IMG/VR virus record: IMGVR_UViG_3300046167_000023 | Location: 1-25,764 of that record | Direction: 5' to 3' (one strand) | From: a virus | DNA length: 25,764 nucleotides | In this document: positions 4,121-22,620 of the stretch, one piece after another | How positions within the stretch are numbered: position 1 is the stretch's first letter | How the letters are laid out: each line of letters begins with the position of its first letter | The notes under the pieces: generated by a model | What the model was told of the DNA's origin: nothing | Database searches by the model: none | The model's input: the letters and a program-made list of their open reading frames with translations, nothing else | Made by a program: the position numbers and the translations under genes

Positions 4121-4363
4121 CTAGTTCCTTCGTTTGCGATCTAAAATGACCTCTGCTGCAATCGCAGCGTCGAGTGCGTCACCGATCTTGTTTAACGCAC
4201 GCAGTATTGCGTGCGCCTCCTCGCGCATCTCTATATCGGAGGCTGCGCTGTTGGCGAAGATACGCATTTGCTCCTCACGAACATCGTCCACGAACGTCTG
4301 AAACGCCGTGTCATTCTTTAGCCGCTTTGCGTCATCGGCTTGTATGCGGATGTCAGCGCTCAC
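4121..4363 (-). CDS. Small helical protein between portal and scaffold
   Basis: The 80-aa, wholly helical and charged protein reads MSADIRIQADDAKRLKNDTA, then FVDDVREEQMRIFANSA, then REEAHAILRALNKIGDALDA, with a basic end (DRKRRN). Similar short proteins with S-x-A-x-LR-x-x-A-E-A-x-RLL-x-D and REEAHA-(I/V)-(V/L)-RAL sit in the same slot in marine podophages, from memory, without a function. The GTG start overlaps the portal stop by 4 nt (GTGA), implying translational coupling; the upstream ribosome-binding site (AGGGT) is weak. A head-assembly or scaffold-accessory role is inferred from position only. Confidence 0.72.
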   Translation of the reverse strand: MSADIRIQADDAKRLKNDTAFQTFVDDVREEQMRIFANSAASDIEMREEAHAILRALNKIGDALDAAIAAEVILDRKRRN

Positions 4364-6452
4364 TGTGGTGTACCCTGAGCCATGCCGCCGATCATGCGAA
4401 CTTTATCCTGCTCGGCCTTGATGCGCGCCACGTCTACGGCAGTGCCGTATTGGCCATATACCTTGGCTGCGTCCACCATGAGATCCTGAGCCATCTGATC
4501 GCGCTTCAGATCGTTGTCGGCGGCTGCTTTCTGCGCATCAAGCTGCAGCTTCATCATGTCTGACTGCATCTTGCCCTGCACCTTGATCTGCTCAGCCTGC
4601 AGGAATGCGGCGTTTGGATCTTGCGCCTGCCCCTGCTGCGCCATCATAGCCTGCTGTTGCTGCTGCATCTGTAGCATCTGCATCTCGATTTCTGGCGTAA
4701 TCGGCGCGAAATAGCGGTCGGCATTGCGTACACCTGACAGCGCCAGACTGTCTGCCAGTGTGTTGCGGATGTTGGTCAGCGATACCAAGCCATTCATCGG
4801 GCCATATTGCTGGTAAACCATCTGCTGCATCTGCAGTGCTTGGTTCAATGCCATCTGCTTTTCTTCTTCGCGGCCAGTTCCAAGCCCGACGTTGATGCTG
4901 ATGTCCATCGACGTATCCCAGACACGCGGATCGACGGGGATATATTGCCCGTTCATCCGCATCATAACCTCTTCGTCCATGTTCTTGTTCATCAGGCGCA
5001 GCATGACGCCAAACAAGTCACGCAGGCCGTCAGCCAAGTTGCGCACCATCACCTCTGTCTGGCCCGCAGCGGCCTGCACAGACGCCTGAACGGCTGCCTT
5101 GGTGGTAGACTGCAGTGCGTCAGGATTAAGCCCCACAGAGGCGCTTGTAACGCCCGTCTTCTGCTCGGTGAGCTGATCCATATACGCAAGCGCAGATAGC
5201 GTCTGACCGGCGACAAACGGCACGCTGAGATCCTGCACAGATCCGGCTTGGCGCATCCGCACAAGTGAGCCAATTTCGTTATTTAGGACATCGTCTATAT
5301 TTACTGCGCCATCCACGATACCAATGCGCGGATTGTTGGTCATCGCCACGTTGTCCAAGATGCCACGCAGAATAGACGTCGCTGCATCTTGGTCGTTTTC
5401 CACCAGTTCAGAAAGGCTGTGTCCGTACCAGCTGTGTGGCTCTGGGTCGATCTCAAACTTGGCAAACGGGATCTCGTCGCACGGCATGAAGTCTAGCAGC
5501 TCGTATGATGTGCCGCCGCAGAGAAACTTGTACAGCACCGGCACGCCGGTTCCGTCAACATCCATACGCATGTAGGCTTCTGTGATGCCCACAAGCTTCA
5601 TGGACGGGTCTAGCTCGTCTTCGTCTGACAAGTCTTCCTCGTAGCCTTGGCGCTCAAGAACCTCTGCGCCAGACATGTCGTTTGTGCCGTCGAAATGGCG
5701 TCAGGTTGGATATGACCTCGAAGTCGAAAGCCCATCTCGACCAGATCGCCGACGCGCATGTCTGTGCGGTGCGCCACGACATATGCGTCATCAAATGAGC
5801 GGCAGTCGCGGTTTACGAAAAACTCTTCCGGCGGGATGCTTTCGATACGCAGCTCGCCCTTCATCTCCGTGCGGCTAATCTTGACCGAATGGACAGGAAG
5901 CTCGATCTGCATGCCCATCTCGTCGATCTCGATGGACATTTCCATGGTATGCTCGATCACGTCCACGTTATCCTCTTGGATCAGAAACGTGTATTCGTCA
6001 TCAGATAGGTCGGTGTAGGTGTAGATTTCCGCAACGGGATAATCGTGCCAATACGCCTTCACGATGCCCTGCTTCTTCACCATGGCGTCTTGGAAGGCGT
6101 CGTTTAGCACGCGGTAGCCGTTCAAACGCGTAAACTCGTGCTGGATGTAGCTGGTGGCCTGCTCAGCCAGCGCAACGTCTTCTGGCCCCTTCGGGATAAA
6201 CTCTACCGGCCTCGCGGTGGACATGAAGATCCGCATCAGGCTTGGCTTCACAGAGCGTACGGTATCCCGTACCTTTGTGGCCACAACCTTGCTCCGACCG
6301 TCTTCGTGGCCAATATCAACCTCGCCGTCGTAGTAGCGCTGCGCCTTGATGCGGTCTTCGCTGATCTCGCTCTCAACGAAGTCAACGGCCTCGCTGATCG
6401 CATTCTGCACGATGCTTTCGATTTCACGACGATCTTTTGGCTGTGGTTGCAT
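4360..6452 (-). CDS. Portal protein, P22-like, broken by two 1-nt insertions
   Basis: The portal is a ring of subunits at one vertex; DNA enters and leaves through it. The N-terminal frame runs from 6452 to residue 242 (RVGDLVEMGF). The remainder starts near MSGAEVLERQGYEEDLSDED and runs to 4360. Removing one A from 5727-5729 and one from 5693-5695 (plus strand) joins them through DFEVISNLTPFDGTND, giving 696 aa; the length matches (2093 = 697 codons + 2). Portal features include IPPEEFFVNRDCRSFDDAYV, then WYGHSLSEL, NNPRIGIVDGAVNIDDVLNN, VGLNPDALQSTTKAAVQ and a Gln-rich C-terminal helix (the barrel). I read the breaks as consensus errors. A single 1-nt deletion past the in-frame TGA is a less natural alternative. 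GGAG lies 6 nt before the ATG. Confidence 0.88.
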
Positions 6453-19995: not shown

Positions 19996-20616
19996 TCAAT
20001 ACGCCTTTATCTTCATGCGGCGACCAGACCCGCCGAATTTCGCTTTATCATTGTCTGCGTTTATACCACCAATCGCGTTCGCATACAAAGATGACCACAC
20101 TTGCAGGCGCGCATCGTCTTTCAGATACGGCGCAGAATGCGATAGAGCGCCATACAAATACGCGTCGGGGAAGTATTCCAACAGCCAGTTAGACGTGTTG
20201 CTGTCGGACAGCGCGCCGATCTTGGCGTAGTAATATAGCTCCGTCGCATATGTGCCATCGGGAACGGGGAACACCTCGATCTCGCCAGCCGTAATCGCGT
20301 AGTAGCGTGGCTCGTATGTTGCGTTGGCCGTGCGCTGCTTGCGCTCCAGCAGCTGAAACTGGCTCATAAGCTCAAGCGGCTGCGTGTTGCCGGAGGTAAT
20401 ATACATCCGTATGACCTCGTAAAAGTCAGACGGCACGGCGCTATACTGCGTATCGATGTTGGCCGTGGCGCGCTTCTCCTGACGCCAGTGGCGTATCTGG
20501 CGATTCATGTCTGCCTCAGCCAGCGAAATAAACGTCGGGATGACGCTCGTCAGGTCATCGCGGTCAAGGAAGTCGCCTATGCTGGATTGCAGCTCTGCGT
20601 ATGTTGTTATGGGCAT
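19996..20616 (-). CDS. Head-tail adaptor, P22 gp4 / SU10 adaptor-like
   Basis: The 206-aa protein begins MPITTYAELQSSIGDFLDRD, then LTSVIPTFISLAEADMNRQI, then TQYSAVPSDFYEVIRMYITS and TANATYEPRYYAITAGEIEV. The C-terminal part is helical (ALSHSAPYLKDDARLQVWSS). The (L/I)PTFI-x-LAEA-x-(M/I)NR-x-(I/L)R core, followed by a LP-x-DF-x-E segment and a beta 'FYE-x-x-Y-x-Y' region, is typical of the podophage adaptor ring that sits under the portal and closes the head after packaging. The start at 20616 is supported by AAGG 7 nt upstream. It precedes the fibre genes, matching the order adaptor-fibre-hub. It is one of the better supported non-enzyme calls here. Confidence 0.82.
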   Translation of the reverse strand: MPITTYAELQSSIGDFLDRDDLTSVIPTFISLAEADMNRQIRHWRQEKRATANIDTQYSAVPSDFYEVIRMYITSGNTQPLELMSQFQLLERKQRTANATYEPRYYAITAGEIEVFPVPDGTYATELYYYAKIGALSDSNTSNWLLEYFPDAYLYGALSHSAPYLKDDARLQVWSSLYANAIGGINADNDKAKFGGSGRRMKIKAY

Positions 20617-20667
20617 TGTGTTGCCTTTATCACTGTGTTAACATTCACCCCTACATGGGAGAATAGC

Positions 20668-20814
20668 ATGATTGACGTAGACTTAGCTAGAGAGCTGATC
20701 GTTTTAAAGGCCAAAGACCTTGGTTTGGAAGACGAAAAACTTGACCAGATGGACGAACTGGTGTGCGAGCTTTTAGGTATTGAAAACGCAGACCCGCTCA
20801 TCTTTCCATCCTAG
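20668..20814 (+). CDS. Lone plus-strand 48-aa gene (moron-like)
   Basis: This is the only convincing gene on the plus strand. ATG at 20668 has a good GGGAG 6 nt upstream and runs to TAG at 20812-20814. The product reads MIDVDLARELIVLKAKDLGL, EDEKLDQMDELVCELLGIEN, ADPLIFPS. It is acidic, amphipathic-helical and has one Cys. I do not recognise a family. It fills a 181-nt gap between the 460-aa gene and the adaptor and overlaps the 3' end of the 460-aa gene by 17 nt tail to tail. The opposite-strand frame is Ser-rich and looks like a shadow. No strong promoter is seen (a TTGTTA box at 20604 has no good partner). It could be a moron or antisense regulator, or possibly not expressed. Confidence 0.6.
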   Translation: MIDVDLARELIVLKAKDLGLEDEKLDQMDELVCELLGIENADPLIFPS

Positions 20815-22180
20815 ACAAGTAATCTAATATTCCCTCAAGCACTTCCGGCGTTATTTGCTGCGCTGGCATAATGGTTTTAATTGCATGCGTTTTGTGCGCT
20901 TCATTTAACGCCTGACCGCTTTTGGTTGTTTTGCCTTCCATCGCGTCATACACGTTTCGGAATAATAAGCCTTGCGGAACAGGTGGAAGAGAACCAACAT
21001 AATCACCGGCGATCTGTGTGTTATACGTTGAGTGCGGGACGTTAGCGCGAGGCAAGTTACCTTTAGGCTCGTTGTACATAAGCGGCGCAGACGTATCTAC
21101 CTTTGCGGCCCCAAGGCCAAACATGCCGGCCGGCATATCTCTTTGCGTTGGGTCGGTTACGCTGTAACGCGCCTCCGCTGGGCTTGGGAAGCCTTGCTCC
21201 TGCATAGGCGCGCTTTCCATTAATCGGATAAATGATTTACGTTTCGGCGACGATGTTGACGTAACCCATTCGCGCAGCTTTGGCGAAAGAACGCCGACGA
21301 AATCGGGGTCTACTGCACGCATAACCTTGTCAAACTCTTTAGCTGACTTCTTGGTTATCTTTGCTCCCTTCACAAGCTCAGCCATTGCAGCGCCAGTAAA
21401 TGTGGCAAAGTCATTAGCGTCTGGAGACATGCTGCCCGTGAGGCCAAATATATCTGCGCCTTCAAAGTCGCGTGACGCTTTTTCCGCTTCACTCTCAATG
21501 CGCTTAATAATGTTTTGATTTGACGCCCAAATAGCGCGGTCTTGCTGAGCCGCTGGGCCGCGCATAAAATCAACGCCGCCTTCGGTATATACCGGCTCGT
21601 CAAATTTTAAATCGTTTACGCCTTCAACCAACAAACCGCGTGCTGTGCGGTCGCCGTAAAACGGTAAAACAACTTTGCCTTCCATGTCTTCCCATGACAT
21701 TGGCTGGCGTGGCAAGTTTTCGCCAGTGTCCGACATCTGCACGTCAGTGTCCGAAAGGTAACCGCGCATTTTTGGCTTCTGATAGCCAAGCGGATCAAGT
21801 TCCTCTTTTTTTATTCTAGACATACCACTTCGCAAAGCATCCGCTGGAGCAGTCGCCGTAAGAGATCCTGCGCCAGCCAAGCCAGCCGTGCCAAGCGCTT
21901 CGTTTATCATGTCTTCCTGCGGGATCGTGCCGCGCATTGCGGAGATCGGCGCGTCAACGGCTTTGGCAGCGGGCGTAAGCAGCCCCACAAGCATGTCGCC
22001 AATGCCTTCATACCGCAGCGTGTCGGTGCCATACGTCGGCTCCTTCGACAGCAGCCCGCCAAGCACGGGGCGGCGGCCCTCCGCAGCCAACTCGCTGCGC
22101 TGCTGGCGTGCCATGTCGTACAGCGCAGAAAAGATGCTCTGTTCTTCGCGTAGGCGTCTTAACTCTTCAGCGGTGGCCAT
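20798..22180 (-). CDS. 460-aa virion-associated protein with polyvalent-type domain
   Basis: I recognise no enzyme. The N-terminal 60 residues are helical and Arg/Glu-rich. A Gly/Ala stretch (95-118, LGTAGLAGAGSLTATAPADA) might be membrane-active. Residues 160-340 hold MSWEDMEGKVVLPFYGDRTA, RGLLVEGVNDLKFDEPVYTE, GGVDFMRG and IWASNQN. The order G-x-x-V-x-P-x-x-GDRT, G-V-N-x-L-x-x-PV-x-x-GG-x-(D/Y)-(Y/F)M, WAS-x-x recalls a domain of giant 'polyvalent' phage proteins thought to enter the cell with the DNA, from memory only. The role is inferred as an ejected or internal protein. The ATG at 22180 overlaps the previous stop (TGATG), with GAGGA 7 nt upstream; a GTG one codon earlier is possible. 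Confidence 0.7.
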   Translation of the reverse strand: MATAEELRRLREEQSIFSALYDMARQQRSELAAEGRRPVLGGLLSKEPTYGTDTLRYEGIGDMLVGLLTPAAKAVDAPISAMRGTIPQEDMINEALGTAGLAGAGSLTATAPADALRSGMSRIKKEELDPLGYQKPKMRGYLSDTDVQMSDTGENLPRQPMSWEDMEGKVVLPFYGDRTARGLLVEGVNDLKFDEPVYTEGGVDFMRGPAAQQDRAIWASNQNIIKRIESEAEKASRDFEGADIFGLTGSMSPDANDFATFTGAAMAELVKGAKITKKSAKEFDKVMRAVDPDFVGVLSPKLREWVTSTSSPKRKSFIRLMESAPMQEQGFPSPAEARYSVTDPTQRDMPAGMFGLGAAKVDTSAPLMYNEPKGNLPRANVPHSTYNTQIAGDYVGSLPPVPQGLLFRNVYDAMEGKTTKSGQALNEAHKTHAIKTIMPAQQITPEVLEGILDYLSRMER

Positions 22181-22620
22181 CACATATTCCTCAGAAAATC
22201 AAATATGCCCATGGCCGCGCCTGCCTTGCTGCGGCGGTCGCCCCTAGCAAGCTCGCTCAGGGCGCGCACGCCAGACCGCACGGCCTGACCATAGTCTTCG
22301 ACCCCGTAAAGCTCGCGGGCGTCGCCAAGAAGCCCCTCGGCGCGCATCTTGGACGCGGTGGGGTTTGGTAGGCGAGACTGCGCCATAGATGACAAAACGC
22401 CGGCGCGTGGGCCTTGCTCAGCAAAAAAGCGGTTGGCGGCTTGCTGGTTGCGCGATGCGGTGTAGGGGTCGTCATACAAGCTGCCATGCTGCTCAAGGGC
22501 GCGCCGTATTGTGTTGTCAGAATACAAGAAGCCTTCCGGCCCGTCTTCGCGCATGGCGTAAGCGTTCTTAACGTCGCCCGTTAGTTCAGCATATTGCGCT
22601 CTCAGATCTAGCGTAGCCAT
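22180..22620 (-). CDS. Hypothetical phage protein, 146 aa
   Basis: The sequence begins MATLDLRAQYAELTGDVKNA, followed by DGPEGFLYSDNTIRRALEQH, DPYTASRNQQAANRFFAEQG, then TASKMRAEGLLGDARELYGV and a C-terminal SELARGDRRSKAGAAMGIFD. It is polar and helical, without TM or signal features. I do not recognise a family. It starts 1 nt after the previous stop and couples to the 460-aa gene by TGATG, so the two may act together. A minor virion protein is the most likely reading. That is inference from context. Confidence 0.65.
   Translation of the reverse strand: MATLDLRAQYAELTGDVKNAYAMREDGPEGFLYSDNTIRRALEQHGSLYDDPYTASRNQQAANRFFAEQGPRAGVLSSMAQSRLPNPTASKMRAEGLLGDARELYGVEDYGQAVRSGVRALSELARGDRRSKAGAAMGIFDFLRNM

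Follow-up and report, generated by a model that had tools for sequence, protein, structure and literature searches.

What is a gene of 48 codons doing on the strand opposite to the packaging and virion genes that surround it, with its end inside one of them? The question is raised by positions 20668 to 20814 of the window, by which we mean the whole stretch of 25,764 nucleotides (IMG/VR virus record IMGVR_UViG_3300046167_000023) that was analysed. The genes around it read leftward and belong to the terminase large subunit, SU10-type adaptor, tail fibre-like, portal, scaffold and major head protein families. A preliminary description of this DNA had reported a lone rightward gene among leftward ones, and leftward genes do make up the rest of the window; among ORFs of at least 40 aa, length-greedy tiling places 31 leftward and 4 rightward ones, a crude count in which a rightward 99-aa ORF is chosen over a leftward 91-aa gene matching phrog_7595. 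By these genes the nearest named relative is Octadecabacter Antarctic DB virus 2 (MW805364), with 55% identity in the adaptor and 66% in the major head protein, a podovirus of sea-ice Octadecabacter according to excerpts of PMC9239159. The portal gene of the window (4360-6452, leftward) consists of two overlapping frames of 280 and 438 aa, whereas two related contigs (L070, L072) have one uninterrupted ORF of 693 aa there; the frame breaks near 5676-5726, through either an error in sequencing or a genuine frameshift.

Position and coding status of the 48-aa gene

The gene (20668-20814, rightward) has an ATG, 48 codons and a TAG, and its product is MIDVDLARELIVLKAKDLGLEDEKLDQMDELVCELLGIENADPLIFPS. 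A Shine-Dalgarno-like GGGAGA is found upstream of the ATG at 20657-20662, where a ribosome-binding site had been claimed, and a purine-rich GGAG-type site precedes the start in most relatives. An in-frame GTG at 20488 would extend the ORF upstream, but in most relatives the conserved stretch begins at the ATG and not in this extension. Five homologues (L044, L062-L065) start further upstream in the same frame, and the upstream start of L044 has a purine-rich site of its own. The protein has a net charge of -9, and its AlphaFold2 model (mean pLDDT 84) contains two helices, at residues 4-17 and 22-36, so that the acidic helical product described earlier is borne out as a predicted helical hairpin. 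With its last 17 nt (20798-20814) the gene runs into the 3' end of a leftward gene, 20798-22183; this end had been correctly placed, and the length of the overlapped gene, given as 460 aa, is 461 aa by translation.

The 48-aa gene is real and conserved, as dN/dS, the comparison of frames, the structure model and the relatives indicate. Three successive scans of IMG/VR found relatives on 29, then 37, then 63 viral contigs; the lack of frame conservation in relatives that the preliminary description had named as a refutation did not occur. Identity falls as low as 46% in alignment A4, which like A5 is a hand-picked subset (28 and 32 rows, respectively). Nei-Gojobori dN/dS is 0.053-0.175 in the 11 of 21 representative pairs for which it is finite, dS being saturated in the remaining 10. 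The rightward frame is open in 39/39 distinct cores, with a mean BLOSUM62 score of differing residues of +0.59, while all other frames are negative. The claim of a small gene is therefore sustained by purifying selection at the protein level (dN/dS 0.05-0.18), with conservative substitutions in its own frame only.

One candidate that uses the same DNA had to be rejected, namely a 64-aa leftward ORF (20607-20801) that is ATGA-coupled to the 461-aa gene and of which the rightward ORF would be the shadow. This ORF is open with an ATG in all 20 distinct sequences of the first comparison. Codon positions (55/30/91) fit the rightward frame, but periodicity alone is indecisive because the leftward ORF uses the same third codon positions. 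In the first set of 13 sequences the mean BLOSUM62 of differing residues was +0.68 in the rightward frame versus -0.67 in the leftward one, and over the 39 cores the leftward value is -0.83. Moreover, in the wider set the leftward ATG has become ATA in several clades, and the ORF is reduced to 3 aa in L132 and to 29 aa in L151. Lost starts, truncations and negative BLOSUM62 scores rule it out as a gene, and the idea that it is the true one is hardly credible.

The absence of a recognised family, claimed earlier, is matched by the searches: none was found in PHROGs, PADLOC or NCBIfam, and Pfam gave one weak match, for 1 of 12 members of the 48-aa family (E 0.18). Matches to PDB sequences were at chance level, a tblastn search of 50,697 named phage records gave no match at E<=10, and against PDB folds the model found weak hairpin matches only (best Z 3.6).

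A sigma-70-like promoter may precede the gene, with TTGTGT at 20616-20621, a spacer of 17 nt and TAACAT at 20639-20644. It is weak in the window, where a stricter consensus scan found no sigma-70-like promoter, and draws its support from the set of relatives. With a hand-entered sigma-70 weight matrix, the 16 upstream clusters into which 58 loci were grouped have a summed score of 152.7 versus 112.3 for shuffled sequences, a score reached by 0/500 shuffles (110/500 in the reverse-strand control); the window's own cluster has p=0.27. On this statistical ground the 48-aa gene likely has its own promoter in the relatives. A scan for terminators downstream gave one rightward site, 21123-21136, which is 1 found versus 1.4 expected from shuffles, and Rfam and tRNA scans of the window gave no family and no tRNA. 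Convergent genes, a putative promoter and the lack of a clear terminator are what would be expected if a rightward RNA, antisense to the 461-aa mRNA, tuned it and the peptide were secondary. Strong conservation at the protein level, the shortness of the coding overlap (17 nt) and the lack of an Rfam family argue against such a regulatory transcript, which we consider quite improbable.

A cassette tied to one C-terminal domain

The overlapped 461-aa gene (20798-22183, leftward) combines an N-terminal part common to polyvalent-type alleles of the same slot with a C-terminal domain of about 335 aa (20801-21805, leftward). In alignments with relatives the C-terminal 335 or so residues recur, while the N-terminal part varies. 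A search with the domain found 97 viral contigs, from which 80 loci were kept. The 48-aa gene lies on the opposite strand after the domain gene in 58 of the 80, and the tail-to-tail overlap, at 20798-20814 in the window, is exactly 17 nt in 58/58. At the other 22 loci no obvious substitute is seen, and the portal gene comes almost directly after the domain gene; a profile search of nine contigs that have no 48-aa gene at the domain gave no copy elsewhere on these contigs, which may be fragments. These 22 loci count against the reading of the 48-aa protein as a partner of the domain.

Seen from the side of the 48-aa gene the association is tighter. A convergent domain gene, with an overlap of exactly 17 nt, is present on 60 of the 63 contigs; two others end inside the domain gene and one (L240) is without the domain, so that the full pair is present on 60 of the 61 testable contigs and the 61st retains the last codons of the domain. 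On that contig (L240:1363-2416) the 48-aa gene is intact, the domain gene is down to about its last 23 codons, and an unrelated 255-aa open frame adjoins it. An orphan immunity gene and an independent function would both fit this arrangement, and an orphan partner gene is a possible reading. The preliminary description had suggested a moron. The gene is indeed accessory, since it is absent from the named relative MW805364, where gp6 abuts gp7, as well as from the 22 domain loci; it does not wander independently of a particular neighbour, being always found at the 3' end of one type of C-terminal domain of the overlapped gene. No plasmid matched the domain, and scans of genome contigs from bacteria and archaea confirmed no relative, either of the domain or of the 48-aa protein.

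The domain, the 48-aa gene and its promoter form a cassette of about 1.2 kb with exchanged flanks. Domain identity is correlated with 48-aa identity (Spearman 0.80, 1035 pairs of distinct loci) and less so with TerL (0.55, 231 pairs), with the N-terminus of the same protein (0.25, 1540 pairs) or with the adjacent adaptor (0.25, 351 pairs). When domain identity is at least 0.90, the 48-aa identity is below 0.60 in 0/101 pairs and that of TerL in 0/28, versus 62/134 for the N-terminus and 22/62 for the adaptor. An example is L082 compared with L009, in which identity is 84-98% from the start of the domain to just beyond the promoter, falling to 14-54% in the left flank and to mostly 29-72% in the right one. 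The right-hand edge, visible in three pairs of loci (L082/L085, L091/L092, L094/L095), is formed in the window by the downstream leftward gene for a 206-aa adaptor or tail-tubular-type protein (19996-20616; Pfam SU10_adaptor).

The pair occurs in two contexts, upstream of the adaptor as in the window or upstream of the portal. A tree of 58 distinct domain proteins and four CRP-902-like ones requires several changes of context; its label 'adapt' is a default value that L102 and L122 also carry, although no adaptor is seen in them. The loci without the 48-aa gene sit on one side of one branch (support 79/97), which fits a single loss.

The slot itself, which lies between terminase and adaptor, is polymorphic in this group of marine phages. 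The window shares the N-terminal part with four alleles whose C-termini differ (L013, L014, L015 and gp6 of MW805364), and 4/4 of these are without the 48-aa gene and run directly into the adaptor. The coordinates of three of them are L013:2657-4195, L014:3504-4619 and L015:3504-4619, all with effector-like swapped C-termini. That of L013 has LPD23, above the Pfam cut-off, and a putative metallopeptidase; those of L014 and L015 are ART-like by eye, with no Pfam match in L014; gp6 of MW805364 has a ParB-like region and an ART-PolyVal match that, like those in L054 and L108, is below the cut-off. That the ART-like and peptidase alleles apparently do without a partner also counts against the partner reading.

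Predicted fold and likeness to known systems

The model of the domain has a pLDDT of 84 and a pTM of 0.79. In a Foldseek search of the PDB the top 21 rows were all YTH-domain proteins (best E 0.02), and in VIA nearly all of 50 rows were (best Z 6.9, rmsd 3.8, 141 aligned residues); the VIA rows also include 2p5d, an EVE-type protein. The predicted fold thus weakly resembles the YTH/EVE readers of modified bases, a middling match that can serve as a lead. Hallmarks of this PUA-like family are a beta-barrel core and an aromatic cage in which the modified base is bound. EVE and YTH are modified-base-binding domains, as stated in the accessible part of PMC7641849; the window domain differs from them in its middling Z, in a large helical insertion and in the lack of any match by sequence. 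Against viral models there were 16 matches at E <= 0.001, several of them in proteins of more than 1000 residues, among them one named PcfJ-like and one structural protein. The domain is acidic as well (net charge -8), so simple charge neutralisation between it and the 48-aa protein is not suggested and was set aside.

Two kinds of described systems are close to this arrangement. MuF toxins of temperate phages, according to the available text of PMC5576092, are packaging-module proteins with a constant N-terminus and a variable C-terminus. Behind each lies a small ORF for which a role as immunity gene has been proposed, and the C-terminus and the small ORF can move jointly. The window has a constant N-terminal part with an exchangeable C-terminal domain, and a small ORF beside that domain that is exchanged with it. 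However, this ORF is convergent and not downstream on the same strand, it is interlocked by 17 nt and has its own likely promoter, and Pfam gives no MuF match in the 461-aa protein. Nor is there a sign of a temperate lifestyle, as no relative was found in bacterial or archaeal genomes.

The second kind is that of phage polyvalent proteins (PMC5512222, in the part consulted), in which several disparate effector domains are combined in one protein encoded near virion genes. The alleles of the same slot carry LPD23, ParB-like or ART-PolyVal-like domains, an InPase fusion occurs in a distant homologue of the domain, and these are phage proteins, mostly beside packaging genes; the 461-aa protein of the window differs in having no significant Pfam domain. 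A small convergent partner gene is not mentioned in that part of PMC5512222, and the words YTH, EVE and 'immunity protein' are absent from its main text. The homologue fused to InPase is a copy of 27% identity in an 898-aa protein of MW202675 (L079:2795-5491), whose label 'type I restriction enzyme' looks like a misannotation.

Directly after a domain gene of 25% identity in Roseobacter phage CRP-902 (OQ401624) lies a convergent gene of 77 aa, gp71 (L081:4957-5190, leftward). Genes of this type are optional, being present at 11 of the 24 loci examined (CRP-902 itself and 23 of 27 viral loci, four having been dropped where the match stopped short of the C-terminal end of the domain). Like the 48-aa gene, gp71 is small, convergent and optional, and a D-x3-C-x2-L pattern is seen by eye in both; it differs in being separated from the domain gene by a gap of 3 nt instead of overlapping it. 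Profile comparison with the 48-aa family gave P=0.021 and a probability of 2.3%, so that a remote relationship is suggestive only.

The arrangement belongs to a known kind, in which a small gene is linked to a polymorphic effector. The variant lies in the convergent interlock of the small gene, with its own likely promoter, on a polyvalent-type protein. In open-licence PMC papers no description of the pair of 48-aa gene and domain was found.

What the 48-aa protein may do

Since the 48-aa gene and one effector-like domain travel as one cassette, we tentatively favour the reading that the 48-aa protein is a dedicated cognate partner of this domain, in the first place an inhibitor of the immunity type; polymorphic toxins with their immunity genes show the same pattern, for example the MuF toxins of PMC5576092. 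The 461-aa gene would be an allele of an effector of the polyvalent type whose N-terminal part is constant and whose C-terminal part can be exchanged. Its product, encoded among the genes for packaging and the virion, would probably travel in the particle. One C-terminal type, the domain of about 335 aa with a predicted YTH/EVE-like core, would come with the small gene on the opposite strand, which host RNA polymerase, at a host-type promoter, would transcribe apart from the late leftward transcription. By binding the domain directly, the 48-aa protein would keep it from acting in the producing cell before it is packaged, or would guard against incoming copies, the domain being presumably toxic or otherwise active on the host. 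A more specific form of the partner reading, which we regard as unlikely, is that the domain, delivered by the virion, reads modified bases in the new host through its YTH-like fold, and that its helical inhibitor, from its own host-type promoter in the tail-to-tail cassette, silences it in the producing cell.

Nearly as likely as the partner reading, and equally tentative, is a hitchhiking moron whose target, independent of the domain, is the host or rival phages. A single insertion would have brought it to the 3' end of an ancestral domain gene, where the 17-nt interlock has since kept it. The interlock alone could make both genes move together, as interlocked ends would hinder separation, and this weighs against the partner reading. 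The likely promoter in relatives, the 22 of 80 domain loci that manage without the gene and its intact state in L240, where the domain is nearly gone, all agree with a moron. Classical morons, however, are found at varied sites, and this gene was never found away from the 3' end of the domain, even the 61st testable contig having the domain's last codons; nor did the scan of bacterial and archaeal genomes or tblastn against the named phage records find any copy. The 48-aa protein might also be an assembly or packaging partner that helps the domain protein to enter the particle or to stay folded, not inhibiting it. Co-inheritance with the domain in a neighbourhood of packaging genes, and the small helical hairpin that the model predicts, would suit this role; a host-type promoter on the opposite strand fits a purely late one poorly, and the gene is absent from 22 of the 80 domain genes. 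We consider such an escort improbable.

Descriptions of polyvalent and injected phage effectors come mostly from their sequences. If the more specific form of the partner reading is true, the 48-aa gene would confer immunity to an effector of the polyvalent type, convergent and not co-directional with it, in phages for which no copy in bacterial genomes was found. A small gene that tracks one effector domain across different backgrounds offers a handle on how the producing cell survives until lysis, and the case illustrates how a tiny gene on the opposite strand can be confirmed, and a likely function proposed for it, from cassette exchange alone.
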